From Microvirga terrae (GTDB lineage Bacteria > Pseudomonadota > Alphaproteobacteria > Rhizobiales > Beijerinckiaceae), in the NCBI RefSeq assembly GCF_013307435.2, contig NZ_CP102845.1, positions 4,884,001-4,948,000 on the forward strand: 64,000 nucleotides of DNA, given 5' to 3'. The translations under genes and the position numbers were made by a program. Positions 42,073 to 57,051 of this stretch are shown here, piece after piece (the stretch's first letter is position 1; each line of letters begins with the position of its first letter). The notes under the pieces were generated by a model. That model saw only the letters and a list, made by a program, of their open reading frames with translations. It made no database searches and was not told where the DNA came from.

Positions 42073-43491
42073 ATGAACGTCCGAAATGACATCTGGCAGC
42101 ATGTGGATGCCGCGAAGAGCCGCCTCATTGCCTTGAGCGACCGCATCTGGGGGATGCCGGAGGTCTGCTACACCGAGGTGTGCTCGGCCGCCGAACATGC
42201 CGCGGAACTGCGCCACCAGGGCTTTCGTGTCACCGAGGGTGTCGCTGGCATCCCGACCGCGATCATCGGCGAAGCCGGTGAAGGCGGCCCGGTCATCGCA
42301 TTCCTCGGCGAGTACGACGCGCTTCCGGGGCTCAGCCAGGAATCGGGCGTTGCGGAGCATCGTCCCATCGAGCCCGGCGGCCATGGACATGGATGCGGTC
42401 ACAATCTCCTCGGATCGGGCGCGATGCTGGCCGCGATTGCCTTGAAGAACTGGCTTGCGGAGAAGGGCATTCCAGGCCGCGTCCGGTATTACGGCTGCCC
42501 GGCTGAGGAAGGTGGCGCGGCCAAGACCTTCATGGTTCGCGCCGGAGCCTTCGACGACGCCGATATCGCGATATCATGGCATCCCTACAGTTTCTGGGAG
42601 GTCGCGCCCGCACTGTCTCTTGCCAACACGCGCGCCGATTTCGCCTTTACGGGCCGAGCCGCTCACGCGGCCGCTTCGCCCCATCTGGGGCGAAGCGCGC
42701 TCGATGCGGTCGAGTTGATGAACGTAGGCGTGAACTACATGCGCGAGCACATGCCGTCCGACGCGCGCGTGCATTACGCCCTGCTCGACACGGGCGGCAT
42801 CGCGCCGAACGTGGTGCAGGCCTATGCCCGCGTGCGCTATTCGATCCGTGCCATGGACCTTCAGGGTATGCTCGACCTCGTCGAGCGCGTGCATAAGATC
42901 GCGCAGGGCGCCGCCCTCATGACGGAAACCAGTGTCGAGATGCGGATCGTCAGCGCCGTCTCGAACACGCTTGGAAACACGCCGCTCGAACATGCTCTGC
43001 ATAATGCCATGGAGGAACTCGGAGCTCCACCCTTCGACGAGGCCGACCGTGACTTTGCCCGGAAGATCCGCGCAACCCTGTCGGACCAGGAGATTGCATC
43101 GGTCTACCGAGCCATCGGCCAGCCGAGGACCGATGCCCCTCTCGCCGATTTCCTGACGCCGCTCGACTCGCCGCGCAAGCCGATGATCGGTTCGACCGAT
43201 ATCGGCGACGTGAGCTGGGTGGTGCCGACCGTCCAGGCGCACGCGCCGACGGTCGCTATCGGCACACCGTTTCACACATGGCAGGTCGTAGCCCAGGGCA
43301 AGATGCCGGCGGCGCACAAGGCGATGGTGCATGTTGCCAAGGCCATGGCAGCCACCGGGATGGCCGCGATAACCGATCCATCCCTGATAACCGCCGCCAA
43401 GGACGATCTCGCCCAGAGGACACGGGAAACCCCATATGTGAGCCCGCTTCGCGAGGGCGTCGAGCCACCCTTGGATATGTCGCGTATCTGA
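42073..43491 (+). CDS. M20-family amidohydrolase, AbgB-like
   Basis: The 472-residue zinc-dependent amidohydrolase has metal ligands in GGHGHGCGHNLLG, the acid/base pair in CPAEEGGAAKT, and the dimerisation/lid domain in the middle (TRADFAFTGRAAHAAASPHLGRSALDAVE). Its length and motif set are nearest AbgB, which cuts p-aminobenzoyl-glutamate, and to aminoacylase-like enzymes. It is the last gene of the importer operon, with GGAGC before the start. The pathway would be uptake followed by hydrolysis of an N-acyl amino acid or similar conjugate. Unlike abgAB, there is no second amidohydrolase subunit. Confidence 0.85.
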   Translation: MNVRNDIWQHVDAAKSRLIALSDRIWGMPEVCYTEVCSAAEHAAELRHQGFRVTEGVAGIPTAIIGEAGEGGPVIAFLGEYDALPGLSQESGVAEHRPIEPGGHGHGCGHNLLGSGAMLAAIALKNWLAEKGIPGRVRYYGCPAEEGGAAKTFMVRAGAFDDADIAISWHPYSFWEVAPALSLANTRADFAFTGRAAHAAASPHLGRSALDAVELMNVGVNYMREHMPSDARVHYALLDTGGIAPNVVQAYARVRYSIRAMDLQGMLDLVERVHKIAQGAALMTETSVEMRIVSAVSNTLGNTPLEHALHNAMEELGAPPFDEADRDFARKIRATLSDQEIASVYRAIGQPRTDAPLADFLTPLDSPRKPMIGSTDIGDVSWVVPTVQAHAPTVAIGTPFHTWQVVAQGKMPAAHKAMVHVAKAMAATGMAAITDPSLITAAKDDLAQRTRETPYVSPLREGVEPPLDMSRI

Positions 43492-44101
43492 TTGAAGCGC
43501 GGATGCCACATGAGCGGCGAATATCGCCCTCTCCTTATCGGGGAAAGTCTCGCACGGGCGGAAGTCAAGGCCTCGAGTACGGCACTCATACGCTCTCACG
43601 AACGTGAAACGCGGAAAGCAGCTCGGCTGTGTTTCGACGTATAAGACCGGAAAAGCTGAGCTCTGCCCCAGACACCCTGCAGAAGAGCATTCAGGAGAGA
43701 ACTCAATGCCCCGTCCGTCCGATAGTCGATTGAACTATAGCCTCGCTTAACCGTTGAACCGGGCAACATGGGCTAAAATGGTCGACCCCAGCCCGTACTG
43801 TCTTGGCTTATGATCCTACCACAAAATTGGGCGGTCACTTGCTCGGAACCAAGGTTTCTGGAAGTCCGGGGTGGGTCTTGGTCGTTTAAAGGCGCTTTGG
43901 CAGAAGTTGGTTTGCAGCTCCCAACGAGCCAGAGAACTCCGCCATCATCAGTGAGCGCCATTCCGCCAGTCGCCGATGGAATGAGGCTCGAACTCCTTAA
44001 GAAGCGGGTGTCCTGTGCGTTCTGAGCTTCAAGACGCGGGCACAGCCCGGCCCTAGGTCTTGAGGGCGGCTATCAACGGCTGGATGCCTAGAATGTTCAG
44101 C
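43492..44101. other. intergenic region between the importer operon and the transposase remnant
   Basis: About 600 bases without a supported gene. The part next to the remnant fuses to its frame, giving unrelated residues after SIDG. Confidence 0.4.
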
Positions 44102-44531
44102 ACCGTCGATGGATACGCTGGCGGTGTTCAGCAGCCCCAGCCCGCGGCTCAGGGTAACGAACTGGGTGCAGACCTGCCGGATTGTGCGGCCGCTGTCTCT
44201 GCGGGATTTGGCGATGGTCTTGTGATCAGGGGCCAGGCGGCCGGTGAGCCACATCAGCGCGACATTGCGACTGGCCTCGCGTTCCAAGCGCCGGCTCGAT
44301 CGCACCCGGTTGAGATAGCCATAGATGTACAGCTTGAGCAGGATAGCGGGATGGTACGACGGGCGTCCGGTGGCTTCGGGCACAACACCGTCAAAGCCAA
44401 GTGCCCGCAGATCGAGCGAGTCGACAAAAGAGTCGATGACGCGCACCGGGTTGTTCTCATCAACCCAGTCGTCCAGGCTTTCAAGACAGGGCGGTCTGGC
44501 TGCGATCCACGCCTTCAACAATGCGCCTCAT
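44102..44531 (-). pseudogene. truncated, frameshifted IS1182-family transposase
   Basis: From ATG 44531 (with GGAGG before it) the frame reads MRRIVEGVDRSQTALS and then stops. The continuation, ESLDDWVDENNPVRVIDSFV through GRPSYHPAILLKLYIYGYLN to APDHKTIA and SVSIDG, is in another frame, so a small indel lies near 44484. This is the N-terminal third of an IS1182-type DDE transposase. Similarity ends at about 44102, before most of the catalytic domain. It is immobile. A GTTTTGACA-like end may lie near 44574. Confidence 0.78.
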
Positions 44532-45053: not shown

Positions 45054-48000
45054 ATGAGAGAGGCATCGCCGATGTGTCCCGTCCAGGTGGCCAACCAAAC
45101 ATGGTGGGAAAACGTGCTCCTGGAGCACTACGGCATCCAGGCCTCTCTCACTCCCCTGGACGGGGAATACGATCTGAATTTCGCCGTTCACCAGGATGGA
45201 AGGAGAACCCATGTCCTGAAGGTGATGCGGCCGGGATGCGAGACCTCGCTCATCGAGGTGCAATGCCAAGCGCTCGACCATATCGCGCAGCATGGCCCGG
45301 AGGTGGTCGTGCCCCGTGTCGTGAAGGCGCGTGACGGATCCCGGTTCGTGTCGACACCCGATCAAGATGGTGAGGAACGGTTGGTCTGGCTCATCACGAA
45401 CCTCCCCGGCCGCGTCTATGCGCAAACGAGCCCGCAGACCCATTCCCTGCTGCGCGAAATCGGCGCCACCCTGGCGATGATGGATCGCGCTCTCGAGGGC
45501 TTCACACACCCTGCCCTTGGGCGAGACATCAAATGGGATCTGCGCCGATCCGGATGGATCCAAGATGCGACCGACCTGATCGATGGCGCCGGCAGGCGGG
45601 AGATCGTCGAGCGGATTGTCGCCGCATTCGACGATGGCCTGCTGGGCCGCCTCAACGCCCTTCCCACCACGGCGATTCACAACGACATCAACGACTACAA
45701 CATGCTCGTGGATGCGAGCACGGGGGAGTCGCGGCTGTCGGGAATCATCGACTTCGGCGACATGATCGACGCTCCCGTGATCGCGGAACTCGCAATCGCC
45801 GGAGCCTACGCGGTTCTCGGTCAGGAGCGCCCCGTTGCGGCTCTTGCGGCGCTTGTCGCCGGGTACGACAGCGTCCGGCCGTTGAGCGACGAAGAACTAG
45901 CCCTGCTCTTTCCCCTTGTCCTGACGCGACTTGCCGTGAGCGTCACGAACTCCGCAATCGTCAAACGGGAGAAGCCCGACGACCCGTATGTCACGATATC
46001 CGAGCAGCCGGCCTGGGCTTTCCTGGAGGCGAATTCCAGCCTTGCGCCCGACTTGGTACTCGCGTGCCTTCGAGTCACGTGCGGACGGGCCGGACACCCC
46101 CGTTCCGATGCGGTGATGGGCTGGATCGAAAGCCATAGAGGCCGGTTCGCCTCGATGTTCGGCCGGAATCTCGACGGAATTCCGGTCATCGACCTGAGCG
46201 TCGCCGGTCCCGCATCCCCCCGCAACCCGTTCGATCTTGACGCCGACGACCTGGACGACGCGGTCGCCGAAGCGATGGGGGGTGCCGACATCGCGCTCGG
46301 CCGCTATGGCGAGCCGCGTCTCATCTACACGGGGCCTGAGTTCCGGAAGGCCCCCTATGCGGGATCCCACAGACGCACGGTCCACATCGCCGTGGACGTG
46401 TTCGTCGATGCCGGCATCGAGGTCCGGGCACCCCTCGACGGCGTCGTGCATGCCGTCGAGCTCCGCACCTCGCCGCTCGACTATGGTGGCGTGGCAGTCC
46501 TGGAACACACGACGCCGGACGGCGACAGGTTCTATACGCTCTACGGTCACTTGGCCGCAGACGTCGTCACACGCCTTGCGCCCGGGCAGACCGTGATCGC
46601 CGGGGAGGTCATCGCTCTCATCGGTGATCGGACGGAGAACGGCGGCTGGACTCCTCATGTCCATTTTCAGCTCGGCCTGACCACACTGGGTCGCGGGGCG
46701 GATTGGCCCGGCGTCGCCGATCCTGACGAGTCCGCCGGATGGATGGCACTGTACCCCAATGGTGCGGCACTCCTGAACCTGGCCGATGAGGATACCGCCG
46801 CCGTCACCATCACGACAGACACCGTCCTGCCTCAGCGCAGGAAGCGCTTCGCCGGCAACCTGAAGCTCTCCTATCGCAGGCCTATCACCTTGCTCCGGGG
46901 CTACAAGCAGTTCCTGTTCGATCAAGATGGCCGAACCTACCTCGACGGGTACAACAATGTACCGCACGTGGGTCACTGCCACCCACGGATCGTCGCTGCG
47001 GCAGAGCGGCAGAACCGACTGCTCAATACCAACACGCGGTATCTGCACCCAGCGCAGGTTGAGTATGCGGATGCGCTGACGTCGCGGCTTCCGGATGAGC
47101 TGAGCGTCTGCTTCTTCGTCAACTCGGGAAGCGAGGCGAACGAACTCGCCCTGCGGCTTGCGCGCGCCCACACCGGAGCCGTCGACACGATCGCGATGGA
47201 TTCCGGCTACCACGGCAACACCAACACGGCAATCGACATCAGTCCCTACAAGTTCAATGGTCCCGGAGGGCGGGGAGCACCGGACTGGGTTGACGTGGTG
47301 CCCGTCGCCGATCCTTACAGGGGTCCATACAAGGGGAGCGACCCAGAGGCAGGGCGGAAGTATGCCGATCACGTCCGCGCGGCCGTCGAACGAATTCAAG
47401 CTCGGAACCGGAGGGTCGCCGCCTTCATTTGTGAGATATTCCCAAGCGTCGGCGGGCAGATCATTCCGCCCCCGGACTATTACCGTCAGGCATACTCGGC
47501 TATCCGGTCCGTCGGGGGCGTATGCATCGCGGACGAGGTGCAAACCGGTCTCGGACGCATCGGCACCCACCAATGGGGCTTTGAGACTCAAGGGGTTGTG
47601 CCCGACATCGTCGTCCTGGGCAAGCCCATGGGGAATGGACATCCCATCGGGGCCGTCGTCACGACCCCGGCAATTGCCGCATCATTCGCAAACGGGATGG
47701 AATTCTTCAGCACCTTCGGCGGGAGCACGCTTGCTTGCGTGATCGGCCGCGAGGTCCTTCGCGTCGTCGATGAGGAGGCCCTTCAGGAACAGGCTCTGGA
47801 CGTCGGCACGTTCATGCTGGATGGACTGCGCGAGCTTCAGAAGGAACACGCGGTGATCGGCGACGTCCGGGGATCTGGCCTCTTCATCGGCGTGGAGTTG
47901 ATCAAGGACCATGACACCCTCGAGCCGGCGCAAAGGCAGGCGTCGTACATCGTGAACCGCCTTCGCGAGCACCGCATCCTGATCGGCACCGACGGGCCGC

Positions 48001-48110
48001 TCGACAACGTTCTGAAGATCAGGCCGCCCCTCTGCTTCACCCGCGAGGACGCGTCTCATCTCCTGGGCCGCTTGGCCACCGTGCTCAGAGAAGAACCCTG
48101 CCGCATGTAG
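45054..48110 (+). CDS. three-domain fusion: APH-fold kinase, M23 metallopeptidase-like domain, class-III aminotransferase/phospholyase
   Basis: A protein of about 1,018 residues joins three usually separate proteins; numbering below runs from the GTG at 45036. Residues about 30-380 are an aminoglycoside phosphotransferase-fold kinase with Brenner motif HNDINDYN (215-222) and metal-binding IIDFGD (237-242). Residues about 430-550 are a LytM/M23 domain with H450, D454, YGHL (503-506) and HVH (541-543), so all zinc ligands are kept. Residues about 590-1020 are a PLP class-III aminotransferase fold with NSGSE (696-700), ADEVQTG (D833) and Schiff-base K863 in GKPMGNG. Kinase plus class-III lyase mirrors hydroxylysine kinase and phosphohydroxylysine/phosphoethanolamine phospholyase, so phosphorylation and then elimination of an amino alcohol is likely. 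The start is uncertain: GTG 45036, ATG 45054 or ATG 45072; the last has GAGAGG 9 bases upstream. No signal peptide is seen. An Lrp/AsnC regulator converges on it. Confidence 0.88.
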
Positions 48111-48141: not shown

Positions 48142-48585
48142 TCAGGAGAATACGGTTCTGAAGTTCGTTGCTAGAACCATGTGGGTTCGCACATCGGCGA
48201 CCCCGGACAGTGTCGAAACCCGGTCCCGAACCTTGTTGAGGGTTTCGACCGCGTCGGCGGCAACATCCAGCACGAGGTCGATGTCGCCAGCCACTGACCG
48301 GCATTGAATGACCTCGTCGATCTGCCGAATGGCATCGACGATGTCGTAAGCGGGCGTCTTGTCGAGCTTCACGAGCAGGACGGCTTGGTTCGGCCTCGGC
48401 AAGAGGCCGGATGACAGGACGGCACAATAGCCTTGAATGAAGCCATTCTTCTCCAGCCGTCGAAGACGAGCCGTCAAGGTGCTGCGGGACAGGCCAACGG
48501 CACTCGCCAGTTGCTTCAAGGGTTCGCGACCGGAGCGCGTCAGGATCTTGAGGATCTGGCGGTCTGTTTCGTCGAGAGACATCAT
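48142..48585 (-). CDS. Lrp/AsnC-family transcriptional regulator
   Basis: The 147-residue protein has an N-terminal helix-turn-helix (about 5-60: LDETDRQILKILTRSGREPLKQLASAVGLSRSTLTARLRRLEKNGFI) and a C-terminal RAM ligand-binding domain (about 75-140), with SVAGDIDLVLDVAADAVETLNKV and TMVLATNFRT-like strand (here THMVLATNFRT). Members sense amino acids and act as dimers or octamers. Its gene converges with the fusion enzyme, 31 bases apart at the stops, and is the best candidate to regulate it in response to an amino acid. Confidence 0.88.
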   Translation of the reverse strand: MMSLDETDRQILKILTRSGREPLKQLASAVGLSRSTLTARLRRLEKNGFIQGYCAVLSSGLLPRPNQAVLLVKLDKTPAYDIVDAIRQIDEVIQCRSVAGDIDLVLDVAADAVETLNKVRDRVSTLSGVADVRTHMVLATNFRTVFS

Positions 48586-50598: not shown

Positions 50599-51306
50599 TC
50601 AGAGGGAAACGCCAAACCGGCCTGCAGCCGAGCGGATATGGCTTTGCATGGCCGATTCTGCCGCGTCAGGATCTTGGCTGGCTATACCCTCCAGAATGGC
50701 CTCATGCTCAGACACGGTTTCATTCAGGCGATCGAATTGCGCCATGGGAAGGCGTTGACTTTCGACGAGCATTTCGCGGACCGGCCGATACATGGCGGCG
50801 AGAACCGGGTTTCCAGAGAGCTCAAAGATCATGTCGTGGAATTCCGTGTCGTTTACGGCGAGGCTGATCACGTCGCCCGCCTCGAAAGCGGTTCGCATCG
50901 CATCGGTGCACCGTCTCAGGCGCTCCTCGGCGGGTTTGTCGATGCGCGCGGCTGCGAGCCTCGCAGCGTACCCTTCCAGCCCCAGGCGTGCCTCGTAAAC
51001 ATCGGCCGGCGTGCAACGATCCGAGTAGCGCCACAGCGGCCGGCGCGCATCGGCTTTTGCGACGAAGACTCCGCTGCCCACCCGTACGGTCACGAGACCC
51101 ATGGTCTCCAGGACGGTCAGGGCCTCCCGCACGGACGGACGGCTGACGCCCAGCTGCTCCGCCAGTTCCCGCTGAGAAGGAAGCCGCTGACCGGCCTTGA
51201 GGCCGCCCTTCAGGATCAGGCGCTGAATATGATCGACGATGCCGCGTGGCACAGGCGTGCGATCGGCGAGTTCCAATTCAGACAGACTCACTGCATCACT
51301 CGTCAT
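50599..51306 (-). CDS. FadR-subfamily GntR transcriptional regulator
   Basis: The 235-residue protein has an N-terminal winged helix (about 20-90: QRLPSQRELAEQLGVSRPSVREALTVLETMGLVTVRVGSGVFV) and a C-terminal FCD domain (about 100-225) with the metal/ligand residues in NDTEFHDMIFELSGNP (D, H) and a late SEHEAILEGI plus MQSHIR. FCD domains bind carboxylates. The gene is divergent from the ABC importer and ureide-type genes. Its likely operator lies in the gap between them. Confidence 0.88.
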   Translation of the reverse strand: MTSDAVSLSELELADRTPVPRGIVDHIQRLILKGGLKAGQRLPSQRELAEQLGVSRPSVREALTVLETMGLVTVRVGSGVFVAKADARRPLWRYSDRCTPADVYEARLGLEGYAARLAAARIDKPAEERLRRCTDAMRTAFEAGDVISLAVNDTEFHDMIFELSGNPVLAAMYRPVREMLVESQRLPMAQFDRLNETVSEHEAILEGIASQDPDAAESAMQSHIRSAAGRFGVSL

Positions 51307-51464
51307 CAGGCACCCTCATCTCGGTCTCGCATCGAGCGCTCATGGCGCGTCGGGCTTAGCTCATGAGCCTCATTTTTGATCATCTCTGGACCGCATTTTA
51401 ATCGCCGCGGACTCCGGATTGGCCTTGACCATGCGCCAGGATGGCTGCACGATCAACTGGTCAG

Positions 51465-51487
51465 ATTGGTAAGACCAGTTTGGCCAA
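51465..51487. promoter_or_regulatory. FadR/GntR-type operator TTGGT-AAG-ACCAG
   Basis: ATTGGT (51465-51470), AAG, ACCAGT (51474-51479) matches the TGGTNNNACCA core bound by FadR-subfamily regulators. TTGGCCAA (51480-51487) abuts it, and an ACTGGT lies just upstream, pairing with ACCAGT. The location between the regulator and importer genes supports binding by the regulator just described. Confidence 0.65.
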
Positions 51488-51585
51488 TACGTCCGGCCAA
51501 CGCAAGCGTTCAGGGAGCCGGCTACCAGATGGCAGCAGAGAATCGGTCGCCGGCCATGGAGCCGGCGTGCAAGATGGAGGACCAG

Positions 51586-52389
51586 ATGTCAGCGAAATTC
51601 ACCCGACGCAGCACATTCGTCGCAGGTTTAACGGCCGTGTTCGTCATATCGGGAGGAACGATGGCCTTTGCCGCCGACATGAAGGTCGGAGCGAACGTCG
51701 GCAACGTTCCGTGGGAGTTCCAGAACGAGAAGGGCGAGATCGTCGGTTTCGAAATCGACCTTGCTAAAGAAGTCGGCAAGCGCCTGAACATGAACGTGTC
51801 CTTCGTGAACATCCCGTTCAACGGATTGTTTGCTGCGGTGCAGTCGGGTCAGGTTGATGCCGCCGTATCCTCGATCACCATCACTAAGAAGCGTCTCGAG
51901 TCGGTATCCTTCGCCCAGCCATATTACGATAGCGACCAGTCGCTGGCGGTGCGAGCCAACTCGGGCATCAAGAACCTGGAAGGTATGGCGACCAAGGTGG
52001 CCGCAGTCGATACGGGTTCGACCGGCGACATGTGGTCGACTGAGAACCAGCAGAAGTACAAATTCTCGGACATCCGCCGCTACGAGGGCTTGGCTCCGGC
52101 GATGCTCGACCTCGCAGCAGGCCGCATCGACGGCTATGTCAGCGACATCCCGGCCGTCCAGTATTACATCAAGGACAAGCCGATCTATCAGGTGGTGGAG
52201 CGCATCCCGACCGGCGAGCAGTATTCGATGATGTTCGCGAAGAACAGCCCGTTGGCAGAAAAGGTCAATGCCGAGATCACGAAAATGAAGCAGGACGGAA
52301 CGCTGGCAAAGATCCACGAGCAGTGGTTCGGCGCCAAGGCCGAGCCGAACTCGGCAACCGTCAAGGTCATGGAGATGCCCAAGCTCTGA
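51586..52389 (+). CDS. polar amino acid-type ABC transporter substrate-binding protein
   Basis: The 267-residue family-3 binding protein has an N-terminal signal (MSAKFTRRSTFVAGLTAVFVISGG, cleaved near AFAA). The mature chain has FEIDLAKEVGKRLNMNVSFVNIPFNGLFAAVQSGQVDAAVSSITIT and the second-lobe YEGLAPAMLDLAAGRIDGYVSD. GGAGG at about 51577 precedes ATG 51586; the frame stays open upstream without coding character. It supplies ligand to the permease and ATPase that follow. The ligand could be a ureido acid given the downstream enzymes. Confidence 0.88.
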   Translation: MSAKFTRRSTFVAGLTAVFVISGGTMAFAADMKVGANVGNVPWEFQNEKGEIVGFEIDLAKEVGKRLNMNVSFVNIPFNGLFAAVQSGQVDAAVSSITITKKRLESVSFAQPYYDSDQSLAVRANSGIKNLEGMATKVAAVDTGSTGDMWSTENQQKYKFSDIRRYEGLAPAMLDLAAGRIDGYVSDIPAVQYYIKDKPIYQVVERIPTGEQYSMMFAKNSPLAEKVNAEITKMKQDGTLAKIHEQWFGAKAEPNSATVKVMEMPKL

Positions 52390-52464
52390 CAGCAGCTCTC
52401 CCCGAGCGTCTGGCATCCGTGCCGGGCGCTCGGCATGGCCACGAAAATTGAGGTGCTGCCCGTC

Positions 52465-53136
52465 ATGTCCATCTTCGACACCTTCCTGAACTGGAAGGTT
52501 TTCGTTCAAACGCTCCCGCTCCTGTTATCGGGTTTGACCACCACGCTAACCCTGGGAGTCACAGCCATCGTCCTGGGCTTCATCGGCGGCTTGGTTCTCG
52601 CCCTGCTCCGGCTCTATGCCAGATCACCCCTCAGGCAGATCGCCATCGCCTATATCGATGTCTTCCGCTCCATCCCGATCTTGGTCCTGCTCGTCGTTAT
52701 CTACTATGCCCTGCCTTTCATTGGGCTGCGGCTCTCCCCCTTTGGAGCTGCCGCCTCTGCCCTGAGCCTCGTGTCCGCTGCGTATTCCGCTGAGATCTTC
52801 CGGGCCGGCATAGAGGCCGTGCCGAAGGGCCAGTTTGAGGCTGCCCGTGCCTTGGGTCTCAGCCCCTGGCGGCGAATGAGCGACGTGGTGCTGCCGCAGG
52901 CGCTTCGGATCGTGATCCCACCGATCACATCCAACTCCATCAACGTGATGAAGGACACGGCTCTCGCATCCGTAGTGGCGATGCCGGACCTGCTCAAGCA
53001 GGCAACGCAGGCCCAGGCGCTGGCGGCGAACCCGACGCCTCTCATCAGCGCGGCCGTCATCTACATCCTGCTCCTGATGCCGCTCGTGCGGCTCGTGGGG
53101 GTTTTCGAGAAGAGACTTGCGGTGAGGGGACGATGA
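52465..53136 (+). CDS. polar amino acid-type ABC transporter permease
   Basis: The 223-residue inner-membrane permease has about five segments. Family marks are the [28 protein letters not shown]-terminal region, [27 protein letters not shown] and the EAA loop [33 protein letters not shown] 52465 ([10 protein letters not shown]) is chosen; an ATG at 52435 adds ten residues but lacks a ribosome site. It must work as a homodimer as only one permease is encoded. The stop overlaps the ATPase start. Confidence 0.88.
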
Positions 53137-53867
53137 CGCGCCCGATTATCGAGATGAAGAACGTCGTCAAGTCGTTCGGCCTATTCACGGCACTGCATGG
53201 CGTCGATCTCCAGGTCAGAGAAGGCGAGATCGTCGTCGTCATCGGTCCGTCCGGGTCTGGCAAGTCCACGTTGATCCGCTGCATCAACCAACTTGAGGAG
53301 CACAACGGCGGCGAGATCATCGTCGACGGGGCGCAGGTCGGCCACGGACGCAAGAGCACCGTTCTCACTGAGGTTGGAATGGTGTTCCAGAGCTTCAACC
53401 TCTTTCCGCATATGACCGTTCTTCGTAATGTCGCGCTCGGCCCTGTCCGCGTGCGCGGCCTGTCGTGGGCAGCGGCCGAGGAGCGCGCTCAGCGCCTGCT
53501 AGCCCGCGTCGGGCTCGAAGGTCACGTGGGGAAATATCCAGCGCAACTCTCCGGCGGGCAACAGCAGCGCGTCGGAATAGCCAGAGCTCTGGCCATGGAG
53601 CCGAAGGTCCTGCTCTTCGACGAGCCGACCTCCGCGCTGGATCCAGAAATGGTGGGCGAGGTCTTGGATGTGATGCAGCAACTTGCAAAGACAGGGGTTA
53701 CCATGGTCGTCGTGACTCACGAGATGGGCTTTGCGCGTAGAGTCGCCGACCGGGTTGTCTTCATGGATGGAGGACGAATCATCGAGGAAGGGCCTCCCGA
53801 CGAGATTTTCAGTTCGCCACGCGATCCGCGCCTCGGAAGCTTCCTCCAGGCCGTCTTGTCACACTAG
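53133..53867 (+). CDS. polar amino acid-type ABC transporter ATP-binding protein
   Basis: The 244-residue GlnQ/HisP-like ATPase has Walker [11 protein letters not shown]-loop [17 protein letters not shown], signature [15 protein letters not shown], Walker [15 protein letters not shown] and switch VTHEMGFA. It completes the importer. The GTG of the ureidoglycolate lyase-like gene follows 12 bases after the stop, so the enzymes are co-transcribed with the importer. Confidence 0.9.
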
Positions 53868-53879
53868 GCTTACACAACC

Positions 53880-54398
53880 GTGCAGACCCTGTTTCCAAAA
53901 CGCTTGACGCCTTCAGCCTTTCGCCCATTTGGCGAGGTGCTGTCTTTCGACCCGGAACGCAGTCGGCTGGTCAATGACGGACGGGCACTGCGCTTCGACA
54001 CGGACACGCGCTTCGACCGCGCATCGCCCGACGGAGAGCCTGTGCTCGCCGTGTACCGGGCGAGCGGCGGGCCGCTGCCGATGCGGCTCCTGACCTTCGA
54101 ACGGCACCCTCTGTCTTCGCAAACGTTCGTGGCTCTTTCTGCTGAACGATTCCTGATCGTTGTCGCTCCCGAGGATCGGGCTGGGCTGCCTGATCTCAAA
54201 CGCGCCGAAGCGTTCGTCGGCCATCGAAACGAAGGCATCAACTACGCCCGCAACCTCTGGCACGCTCCGATCGCGGCGATCGGCCCAGACGGCGATTTTC
54301 TCATGTTCATGTGGGAAAGCGGCTCCCCTGAAGACTGCGTTTTCCACCACCTCCTAGAGCCGCTTGTCGTCAGCTCGTTTCAACCGCCCGCAGAATAG
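53880..54398 (+). CDS. ureidoglycolate lyase-family protein (AllA-like)
   Basis: The 172-residue cupin-like protein carries the family marks LTPSAFRPFGEVL at the N-terminus, LTFERHPLSSQTFVALS in the middle and EGINYARNLWHAPIAAI towards the end, where HAP lies in the active-site strand. AllA cleaves ureidoglycolate to glyoxylate and urea in purine breakdown. No allantoinase or allantoicase is in the window. It starts with GTG. The operon context suggests a ureido acid formed by the dihydropyrimidinase-like enzyme is its substrate. The precise reaction is uncertain. Confidence 0.8.
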   Translation: MQTLFPKRLTPSAFRPFGEVLSFDPERSRLVNDGRALRFDTDTRFDRASPDGEPVLAVYRASGGPLPMRLLTFERHPLSSQTFVALSAERFLIVVAPEDRAGLPDLKRAEAFVGHRNEGINYARNLWHAPIAAIGPDGDFLMFMWESGSPEDCVFHHLLEPLVVSSFQPPAE

Positions 54399-54406
54399 GT
54401 TCATCC

Positions 54407-55621
54407 ATGTCTCTTGATCTCGCCTTCGTCCGCTCCCAGTTTCCTGCTCTGGCGGACGGCTTCGCCTATTTCGACAATGCTGGCGGCTCCCTCGTCCTGC
54501 GCAATGTTGCCGAACTTATCTCGGAGTATCTTCTGACCACGAGCGTGCAGACCGGCGCCAGCTACGAGCACTCGCAACGGGCCACGAGCCGGCTCATGGA
54601 AGCCCGCGCCAAGATTGCACGTCTGCTCGGCGCAGCGCGACCGGAAGAAATCGTGCTGGGACCCTCGACCACTGTTCTGGCCCAGTTTCTGTCACGAGCC
54701 ATGGAAGGGCGCCTCAAGCCGGGTGACGAGATCGTCGTTACGAATTTCGACCACGAGTCGAATATTGGGCCATGGCGCTCCCTGGAGAAGCGCGGCATCG
54801 TCATCAGGGAGTGGTCCATCGACCGCGACAGCTACGAGATCGACCTGGATGAACTCGATCGCCTGATGAGCGGACGGACCCGGCTCGTGGCTGTGACCCA
54901 TGCCTCGAATATTCTGGGCACGATCAACCCGGTCAAGGAGATCGCGCGCCGTGTGCACGAGCGTGGCGCCGAAATCGTCGTCGACGCCGTTGCCTATGCG
55001 CCCCACCGGGCCGTGAATGTGAGCGATCTCGATGTCGATTACTATATCTTCAGCTTCTACAAGACCTACGGCCCCCACTTCGCCGTGATGTACGGCAAAT
55101 ACGACAAGCTGCTCGAACTCGACGGGCTCTATCACTACTTCTACGGTCGCGAGAAGGTGCCGATGAAGCTTGAGCCAGGCAACACCAATTACGAGCTTGC
55201 CTGGGGTTCGGCCGGCATCGTGGACTATATTGGCTCCCTCGGCGGCGGCACCGGCGACCGGGCCGCCATCGACCGCGCCTTCGACAGGATCGCGGCGCAC
55301 GAGACCCTTTTGGGAGAAAAGCTGCTCGCCTACTTGAGAGACCGCAACGACGTGCGCATTGTCGGGCGCCGCGACAGCGCTACGGATCGTCGCGTGCCGA
55401 CCATCGCTTTCAAGGTGGACGGGCGCGACTCGGCCGAGATCGTACGTTCCGTCGAAGTCGACAGGATCGGCATCCGCTTCGGGGACTTTCACTCCCGCCG
55501 CCTGATCGAACACCTCGGCCTCGCCGATGGCAATGGTGTGGTACGCGTCTCCATGGTGCACTACAATACACCAGAGGAGGTCGACCGGCTGATCGGAAGC
55601 CTCGACCGCTCGCTCGCCTGA
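54407..55621 (+). CDS. class V PLP enzyme, cysteine desulfurase-like
   Basis: The 404-residue fold-type I protein begins FPALADGFAYFDNAGGSLVL, has the PLP-binding HASNILGTINPVKEI region with D193 in VVDAVAYAPHRAV, and the Schiff-base lysine K219 in FSFYKTYGPH. The pattern fits the cysteine-desulfurase-like subgroup of unknown role rather than IscS or SufS, which have a catalytic Cys loop not seen here. It sits between the lyase and dihydropyrimidinase genes in one operon. It may release an amino group or cleave a side chain of the ring-opened compound. Confidence 0.82.
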   Translation: MSLDLAFVRSQFPALADGFAYFDNAGGSLVLRNVAELISEYLLTTSVQTGASYEHSQRATSRLMEARAKIARLLGAARPEEIVLGPSTTVLAQFLSRAMEGRLKPGDEIVVTNFDHESNIGPWRSLEKRGIVIREWSIDRDSYEIDLDELDRLMSGRTRLVAVTHASNILGTINPVKEIARRVHERGAEIVVDAVAYAPHRAVNVSDLDVDYYIFSFYKTYGPHFAVMYGKYDKLLELDGLYHYFYGREKVPMKLEPGNTNYELAWGSAGIVDYIGSLGGGTGDRAAIDRAFDRIAAHETLLGEKLLAYLRDRNDVRIVGRRDSATDRRVPTIAFKVDGRDSAEIVRSVEVDRIGIRFGDFHSRRLIEHLGLADGNGVVRVSMVHYNTPEEVDRLIGSLDRSLA

Positions 55622-55632
55622 GGAGGACGTCG

Positions 55633-57051
55633 ATGGAGCTCGATCTCGCGATCAAGGGCGGCACTGTCGTCACCGCATCCGACACGATCCGCTGCGACGT
55701 GGGTGTCAGGGGTGAGCGCATTGTTGCGCTCGGTGAGAATCTTCGCGCTCAGCGGGAAGTCGATGCTTCCGGGCTCCTCGTGCTGCCCGGGGGCATCGAC
55801 AGCCATGTTCACATCGCTCAACCCTCAGGGCCCGGCGTGGTGATGGCGGATGATTTCGCCTCGGCCACGGCTTCGGCTGCGGCTGGCGGCAACACGATGG
55901 TTCTTCCCTTCGCACTCCAGCAACGGGGCACGTCCCTGCGCGCCTGCGTCGAGGACTACAGGAGGAAGGCCGAGAACGAGTGCTACGTCGACACGGCCTT
56001 CCACCTGATCGTCTCGGATCCGACGCCCGAGGTTCTGGGGCAGGAGCTTCCCGCGCTGCTCAAGGACGGCTACACGTCGTTCAAGGTTTTCATGACGTAC
56101 GATGATCTCGTGCTGAAGGACCGCGAGCTTCTCGACGTGTTCGAGGTGGCGCGTCGGGAGCGCGCCCTTGTGATGGTGCACGCGGAGGGGTATGACGCGA
56201 TCCGCTACATGACCGAGCGTCTTGAGCGCGAGGGTCGTACTGCTCCCTATTACCATGCTGTTTCGCGCCCGGAAATTGTGGAGCGGGAGGCCACGCATCG
56301 GGCGATCAGCCATGCGGAGCTCGTCGATGTGCCGATCATGATCGTGCATGTGTCCGGTCGCGAAGCGATGGAGCAGATCCGCTGGGCACAGTCCCGCGGC
56401 CTCAAAATCTATGCCGAGACCTGCCCGCAATACATCACGCTCACCGCCGAGGACCTGCAAGGTCCGGACATGGACATGAGTGGTGCGAAATACGTCTGCT
56501 CGCCTCCGCCGCGGGATGAGGAGAGCCAGGCGGCCATTTGGGAGGGATTGCGCAGCGGCGTGTTCCAGACTTTTTCGTCAGATCACTGCCCATTCCGCTA
56601 CGACAGTCCGTCCGGAAAGCTCCACCCGAACGGCAGGAGCTCCTTCCGGTGGGTGCCGAATGGCATCCCTGGTGTCGAGACACGGCTGCCCATTCTGTTC
56701 TCGGAGGGAGTTTCCAAGGGGCGGATCTCCCTCAACCGCTTCGTGGAACTGACCGCCACGAACCACGCGAAGATCTACGGCCTCTATCCACGCAAGGGTT
56801 CCATCGGCGTCGGGTTCGACGCCGATATCGTGCTCTGGGATCCGAACCGACGCGAGGTCATCCGCCAGGAGATCCTCCACCATGGTGCCGACTATACACC
56901 CTGGGAGGGATTCGAGGTCACAGGATGGCCGATGATGACGCTGCTGCGGGGCCAAATCGTCGCCGAAGGCGGACGTATCGTCGGCGCCAAAGGAGCCGGC
57001 CGCATCTTGGCTCGGGACGTATCGGCCTATGCAGCACCCAGCGGCACCTAA
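55633..57051 (+). CDS. dihydropyrimidinase/hydantoinase-family cyclic amidohydrolase
   Basis: The 472-residue enzyme has the HxH metal pair H58/H60 in GGIDSHVHI, the carboxylated lysine K151 in SFKVFMTYDD, H183 in MVHAEGYD, a later MIVHVSGREA His, and the Asp in FSSDHCPF. The size is right for dihydropyrimidinase. It would open cyclic ureides such as hydantoins or dihydrouracils to N-carbamoyl acids. The motif HAEGYD replaces the usual HAENGD, and SSDHCPF is typical. GAGGAGG lies 8 bases before the ATG. It ends the operon, with a hairpin covering the stop. Confidence 0.88.
   Translation: MELDLAIKGGTVVTASDTIRCDVGVRGERIVALGENLRAQREVDASGLLVLPGGIDSHVHIAQPSGPGVVMADDFASATASAAAGGNTMVLPFALQQRGTSLRACVEDYRRKAENECYVDTAFHLIVSDPTPEVLGQELPALLKDGYTSFKVFMTYDDLVLKDRELLDVFEVARRERALVMVHAEGYDAIRYMTERLEREGRTAPYYHAVSRPEIVEREATHRAISHAELVDVPIMIVHVSGREAMEQIRWAQSRGLKIYAETCPQYITLTAEDLQGPDMDMSGAKYVCSPPPRDEESQAAIWEGLRSGVFQTFSSDHCPFRYDSPSGKLHPNGRSSFRWVPNGIPGVETRLPILFSEGVSKGRISLNRFVELTATNHAKIYGLYPRKGSIGVGFDADIVLWDPNRREVIRQEILHHGADYTPWEGFEVTGWPMMTLLRGQIVAEGGRIVGAKGAGRILARDVSAYAAPSGT

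Follow-up and report, generated by a model that had tools for sequence, protein, structure and literature searches.

The protein encoded at positions 45054 to 48110 of the window (the whole 64,000-nucleotide stretch of Microvirga terrae DNA that was analysed) joins an APH-type kinase, a peptidase family M23 module with an intact active site and a class-III PLP domain of the phospho-lyase type, and this three-domain design is widespread and already catalogued. We consider it possible, although somewhat short of probable, that the fusion is a cytoplasmic three-step salvage enzyme. Translation of the open reading frame, Pfam matches exceeding the cut-offs for all three domains (APH, 2.1e-24; Peptidase_M23, 2.6e-12; Aminotran_3, 5.1e-73) and a motif scan that found the catalytic motifs of each confirmed that a kinase, an M23 domain and a class-III PLP domain lie in one chain, as a sequence-only reading of this DNA had claimed. 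The residues named in that reading (H450, D454, H541, H543 and K863) are correct when counted from an alternative start, GTG 45036, but the reading omitted H499 of the YGHL motif, which we take, by comparison with LytM-type enzymes, to be the fifth active-site residue. Numbered from ATG 45054, as here, the residues are H444, D448, H535, H537 and K857. The features of the fusion gene are as follows.

45054..48110, + strand: three-domain protein, 1018 aa, with no internal stop in the translation
45036, + strand: alternative start GTG, six codons 5' of ATG 45054
45150..45878, + strand: APH-type kinase domain, aa 33-275, with HNDINDYN at 209-216 and IIDFGD at 231-236
46287..46778, + strand: M23 module, approximately aa 412-575, limits set by eye from alignments
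46380-46673, + strand: M23 Pfam core, aa 443-540
46383..46397, + strand: H444 and D448 (HxxxD) codons, motif HIAVD at 444
46548..46550, + strand: H499 codon, within YGHL at 497
46656..46664, + strand: H535 and H537 (HxH) codons, HVH at 535, with the branch motif NGGWxP just before
46893..48086, + strand: class-III PLP domain of phospho-lyase type, aa 614-1011, with NNVPHVGH
47622-47624, + strand: K857 codon, within LGKPMGN at 855

A 581-aa open frame also runs antisense to the fusion gene (window 45897-47642, - strand) and is presumably a by-product of codon use.

The catalogued family and its outer domains

The window protein scored 1391.8 bits against NCBIfam NF004799 (PRK06148; cut-off 1128) across residues 14-1013 of 1018, and is therefore a member of this family, which it matches end to end with no difference found; a new architecture is thereby ruled out. 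Against NF004800 (PRK06149, 'aminotransferase') it scored 737.9 bits, below the cut-off of 973, and is not a member. The NF004799 label, 'hypothetical protein' at the subfamily level, carries no function, and NCBI names members of the family 'aminotransferase class III-fold'. The three-domain order, which the sequence-only reading had suggested seeking in other genomes, does recur there, but in a family already catalogued as PRK06148 and found in many phyla. Relatives numbered 1818 among 8000 scored candidates, and the best 120 of the 1818 were examined for precomputed Pfam labels; 119 carried all three (one being the window's own protein), while the sole exception, P0117, lacked only the APH label. 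Together with the Pfam and NF004799 matches, this rules out chance or an annotation artefact. The nearest relatives among these best 120, with the window's own entry excluded, were Microvirga proteins of at most 93% identity. Loci with names came from Pseudomonadota, Bacteroidota, Chloroflexota, Acidobacteriota, Gemmatimonadota, Planctomycetota, Latescibacterota, Thermodesulfobacteriota and others; many of these loci derive from metagenome bins. No paper on a PRK06148-type protein was found in the literature searched, which included few subscription papers; in a table of PMC8249566, 'PRK06148' is the domain label of a Mycoplasma lipoprotein.

The kinase domain falls in the APH kinase superfamily by its Pfam match and by its catalytic residues D211, N216 and D233. 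Across an alignment of 92 proteins (the frames of 91 loci and, in addition, the window protein, itself one of the loci), D211 and N216 are each kept in 91 and D233 in all 92. Position 209, a histidine in the window protein, retains that residue in 83, with Y replacing it in 8 and F in 1. The domain bears a weak likeness to homoserine kinase (NF003558), scoring 59.5 bits against a cut-off of 271, and is not a member of that family.

The order of scores and the PLP lysine place the C-terminal domain in the phospho-lyase branch of class-III PLP enzymes. Among solved structures, human ETNPPL (6tor) scored 446 bits and the Arthrobacter phospholyase (5g4i) 308 bits, compared to 174 bits for the best other class-III enzyme, and the motif NNVxHVGH is common to the window domain and both solved phospho-lyases. 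K857 is kept in 91 of the 92 aligned proteins, the exception being the degenerate L104. By sequence, then, the domain is closest to ethanolamine-phosphate phospho-lyase. The kinase and phospho-lyase character of the outer domains is well supported by kinship, and the logic that the sequence-only reading had seen in them, phosphorylation followed by phospho-elimination, gains support accordingly, with human ETNPPL as the closest solved relative.

When 106 lyase domains were placed in a quick tree, one clade (SH-aLRT 95) comprised 68 fusions with a live M23 site, six kinase-lyase fusions without M23, human ETNPPL, one M23-lyase and one lone lyase. The second clade (SH-aLRT 99) held eight PRK06149-type proteins, and the third (SH-aLRT 99, 17 rows), which adjoins the fusion clade, held split or lone proteobacterial lyases together with 5g4i; two lone lyases, L255 and L256, fell outside all three. 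Human ETNPPL lies inside the clade of fused lyases in this tree, but we do not claim that it is nested within the three-domain clade, as a tree excluding it was not rejected (AU p 0.434). Unlike the fusion, ETNPPL (499 residues) and the Arthrobacter phospholyase (446) are too short to contain a kinase or an M23 module.

Conservation and loss of the M23 active site

Ordinary M23 enzymes are known as exported cell-wall enzymes that cut peptidoglycan cross-links. The window module belongs to peptidase family M23 by its Pfam match and its pentad (HxxxD / H / HxH), both of which it has in common with the lysostaphin / LytM type. Of the five M23 matches in the source genome (6.13 Mb, 4 contigs), the module of the fusion scores lowest against Pfam, and a profile built for its branch gave 21-24 bits with three of the ordinary M23s, compared to at least 90 for branch members, and no match with the fourth. 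In contrast with lysostaphin and LytM, the branch carries ExRxxY and mostly NGGWxPHxHFQ motifs, and in contrast with the cell-wall type it either sits behind a kinase domain, which forms the N-terminus of the fused form, or is encoded without an evident export signal. N-terminal hydrophobicity maxima, which are a rough sign only, were 0.25-1.98 in 18 separate relatives and 2.35 in one ordinary M23. These features set the module in a distinct M23 branch that is probably intracellular.

The pentad is intact in 86 of the 92 aligned proteins, and of the six exceptions five are PRK06149-type proteins that exceed the cut-off of their family, while the sixth is a degenerate frame. Among 167 branch sequences picked by a profile score of at least 90 bits, which favours conserved sequences, HDHHH was present in every one (111 from three-domain frames and 56 from others). 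By frame type, this amounts to 111/111 with kinase and lyase, 41/41 M23-only (one gene counted twice), 14/14 short and 1/1 M23-lyase. The 111 fused sequences also show no variation at four positions beyond the pentad (E420, R422, R441 and Q539), and 110 of them keep W532. The complete zinc site noticed in the sequence-only reading is thus strictly conserved in the PRK06148 family, with no general loss of its ligands found, but the sister family PRK06149 has lost them. The lipoyl-like carrier role that the same reading had entertained for the middle domain is unsupported, since five catalytic residues and an existence as a separate gene, both of which the module has, are not what a carrier requires. 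Given its strict conservation, its loss elsewhere and its occurrence as separate genes, the module looks like a working hydrolase.

PRK06149-type proteins have the same kinase, lyase and homologous middle module as the window protein, but their module lacks the zinc site. The spacer of six such proteins aligned to the M23 branch (hhalign probability 99.2, E 6.8e-20) with the pentad absent from all six; by eye, the position of E420 is E in four and Q in two, and that of R422 is R in three and Q in three. The module can also be missing altogether. Kinase-lyase fusions of 757-797 aa without M23 occur in 6 of 247 Bacteroidota genomes (L245-L250); they sit at two places inside the lyase fusion clade (supports 93 and 90), which probably reflects two losses of the module. 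Seven Pseudomonadota genomes (eight loci, two from one genome) encode the kinase and the lyase in neighbouring but separate genes and lack a branch M23. That the module is dead in PRK06149, missing in two lineages and absent beside split genes implies that the kinase and lyase need no M23; where M23 remains in the PRK06148 clade, its active site stays intact. Seemingly truncated Sinorhizobium meliloti copies were set aside as an effect of a stricter E-value limit, NZ_CP021820.1 having matched from residue 26 versus 208.

The branch module also occurs as separate genes. A search with just the module returned 132 proteins, the best 120 of which include small ones of approximately 190-310 aa, some on long contigs, and 21 selected proteins of the separate type were 32-44% identical to the window module, with the pentad kept in all 21. 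In a survey of one alphaproteobacterial family (the family of one genome), 41 of 295 genomes matched, and M23-only frames accounted for 10 of the 30 loci kept. Across the 247 Bacteroidota genomes, M23 was fused in 23 and separate, by frame length, in 48, and no genome had both (hypergeometric P 0.005, with the kinship of genomes ignored). A separate M23 was found in 4 of the 6 Bacteroidota genomes with a kinase-lyase fusion without M23, compared to 48 of the 224 lacking the three-domain fusion (P 0.020, kinship likewise ignored). No close phospho-lyase was detected in 42 of the 46 tested genomes with a separate M23, indicating that the substrate of a separate M23 need not be the amino alcohol, and none was found in 20 genomes without a branch M23. 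On the M23 tree, the separate genes form two supported groups lying among the fused ones, one of 30 Bacteroidota rows including 14 short ones (support 100) and one of 10 alphaproteobacterial rows (support 99). Fused and separate modules therefore interleave, and the tree fits freeing or joining alike.

Gene neighbourhoods

The genes nearest to the fusion in the window are as follows.

48142..48585, - strand: regulator of Lrp/AsnC type, convergent with the fusion and conserved in four Microvirga loci
42073..43491, + strand: M20-type amidohydrolase, upstream of the fusion, its link to the fusion unproven
43997..44521, - strand: fragment of an IS1182-family transposase, separating the M20 gene from the fusion

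The sequence-only reading had taken the Lrp/AsnC regulator as a sign of an amino acid-type substrate, and an amino-acid flavour is indeed borne out for some surroundings. All four Microvirga loci have such a regulator adjoining the fusion, as do L122 and 4 of 6 annotated plasmid loci of Rhizobiaceae/Phyllobacteriaceae, and the window copy is 41-43% identical to the regulators beside Rhizobiaceae copies. A gene for an amino-acid-type binding protein lies downstream in three of those six plasmid loci, all three of which also have the regulator, and these binding proteins are 79-84% identical to each other. The IS1182 fragment parts the fusion from the M20 amidohydrolase and a peptide-type ABC operon. 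Farther along the window (50599-57051), translations judged by eye give a GntR-like regulator, an amino-acid-type ABC transporter and aminotransferase-like and dihydropyrimidinase-like genes, which looks like another nitrogen-compound cluster.

No partner gene is conserved family-wide. The commonest families among 113 immediate neighbours scanned had five members each, a universal operon partner was not present among the neighbours examined, and the substrate is consequently not pointed at by a conserved gene partner. Of 91 neighbourhoods reaching at most 9 kb to either side, 8 contain an aldehyde dehydrogenase gene; this is a raw count without a control, and the domain was confirmed for one representative. 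The Ruegeria TM1040 fusion has an aldehyde dehydrogenase, a membrane dipeptidase and a BCCT transporter upstream and a LysR gene downstream, and in Paracoccus seriniphilus a MurR/RpiR gene lies upstream of the plasmid copy. Glutamine-synthetase-like and branched-chain-type ABC genes lie near L011, L055, L125 and the Paracoccus seriniphilus copy (L262), and an N-formylglutamate-amidohydrolase-like gene lies near L011, L055, L077 and the Paracoccus copy; the glutamine-synthetase-like neighbours are suggestive of gamma-glutamyl chemistry. Dipeptide-type ABC genes near the fusions of the window, L007, L008, L085, L116, L118 and L121 (a raw tally without a control) were set aside as a clue to a partner, as such transporters are common in these bacteria. 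At L119 and L120, a PRK06149-type gene is followed, directly or one gene on, by a gene of the Porphyromonas-type peptidyl-arginine deiminase family (named from Pfam for L120 and from its cluster for L119), a family to which agmatine deiminases belong.

The 14 short M23 loci, all from Bacteroidota (L229-L242), were compared with the reference L231, itself counted, with names taken from Pfam and NCBIfam for L231. Twelve of the 14 combine genes for an SSF symporter, a GNAT protein and an Orr-type racemase, 11 have an M20 amidohydrolase gene and 9 an alanine racemase gene. The contigs of the two loci that lack SSF and GNAT measure 7.5 and 5.1 kb. In L231, the racemase scores 316, below the Orr cut-off of 480, the amidohydrolase scores 229, above the general cut-off of 154 and below its specific cut-offs, and the only NCBIfam match of the M23 protein is PRK06148, across the M23 part. 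Near two separate M23s, a carboxyl-transferase gene is followed by a Mur-ligase-domain gene, a pair that is presumably accD-folC.

A possible three-step reaction and its alternatives

In the three-step reading, the M23 module would hydrolyse a small amide or peptide conjugate to free a compound bearing a terminal amine, either an amino alcohol or a hydroxy-amino acid, with ethanolamine, 1-amino-2-propanol and 5-hydroxylysine as candidate substrate types. The APH-type kinase would then phosphorylate the hydroxyl of the freed compound with ATP, and the C-terminal PLP domain would eliminate phosphate and ammonia to yield an aldehyde. We infer that an M23 module freeing the substrate of the kinase and lyase is the simplest joint reading; the order of the steps, the substrate, the zinc and the cytoplasmic place of the enzyme are likewise predictions. 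The lyase scores and tree, the conservation of the pentad, the distance of the branch from the ordinary M23s of the genome, the interleaving of fused and separate modules and their distribution in Bacteroidota genomes, the neighbours of the short loci and of the Lrp/AsnC type, and the aldehyde dehydrogenase genes in some neighbourhoods argue for this reading, while the lack of a conserved partner, the dispensability of M23 and the 42 of 46 separate-M23 genomes without a close phospho-lyase weaken it. Slightly more tentatively, we suggest that the intracellular M23 branch may have departed from the cell wall and taken on the role of a metabolic amidase, acting on small amino-alcohol or diamino-acid conjugates and serving as the first step in PRK06148, as a separate gene in Bacteroidota and, in its short type, near racemase and amidohydrolase genes.

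In the leading alternative, itself unlikely, the enzyme is a two-step kinase/phospho-lyase whose M23 module binds zinc or a ligand for structure, dimerisation or regulation and hydrolyses nothing. Kinase-lyase forms with a dead M23 or none at all imply that the module can persist without an active site, and E420, R422, R441 and Q539 are kept as strictly as the pentad that they lie outside of. However, all 111 fused sequences keep the five catalytic residues, beyond the metal ligands alone, and single-domain versions of the module also keep all five. That the module instead acts on imported peptidoglycan peptides in muropeptide recycling, and was joined to the kinase and lyase for co-regulation, is quite improbable. 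Peptidoglycan cross-links are the target of ordinary M23 enzymes, and the short separate M23s lie near genes for alanine racemase, Orr-type racemase and amidohydrolase, but among the annotated neighbours, which are a part of all neighbours, none was recognisable as a murein recycling gene, the Mur-ligase-domain genes near two separate M23s look like accD-folC, and the branch is far from the ordinary M23s of the source genome itself.

The order of the domains along the chain would suit a reaction that starts with phosphorylation of the conjugate by the kinase and leaves the phosphorylated compound to the M23 module and the lyase (kinase, hydrolase, lyase). As chain order is no guide to reaction order, however, we regard this sequence of steps as very improbable. 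We give hardly any credence to a fusion that does other chemistry by combining an ordinary class-III transaminase with a protein or homoserine-type kinase; it would agree with the NCBI naming 'aminotransferase class III-fold' and with the weak likeness to homoserine kinase (59.5 bits versus 271), but not with scores of 446 bits for phospho-lyase versus 174 for the best other class-III enzyme, or with the NNVxHVGH motif common to both solved phospho-lyases.

Returning to the three-step reading, animals reportedly have a hydroxylysine kinase / phospho-hydroxylysine lyase pair, said to have been described by Veiga-da-Cunha and colleagues in 2012, and its logic of a kinase followed by an ammonia-phospho-lyase is the same as that proposed for the fusion. 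The two animal enzymes are reportedly separate proteins and are not known to carry an M23 module. Veiga-da-Cunha et al. 2012 appears in the reference list of PMC8154272. An intracellular M23 branch with a strictly kept active site, fused to or separated from a kinase and a phospho-lyase, would bring a hydrolase into small-molecule metabolism and would provide a function for a large family of 'hypothetical protein' and 'aminotransferase' entries, among whose related enzymes the live, dead and missing M23 sites amount to a natural experiment. On pSymB of Sinorhizobium meliloti Ak57 (L264:6953-14135), a single gene separates a PRK06148-type gene with a live M23 from a PRK06149-type gene with a dead one.
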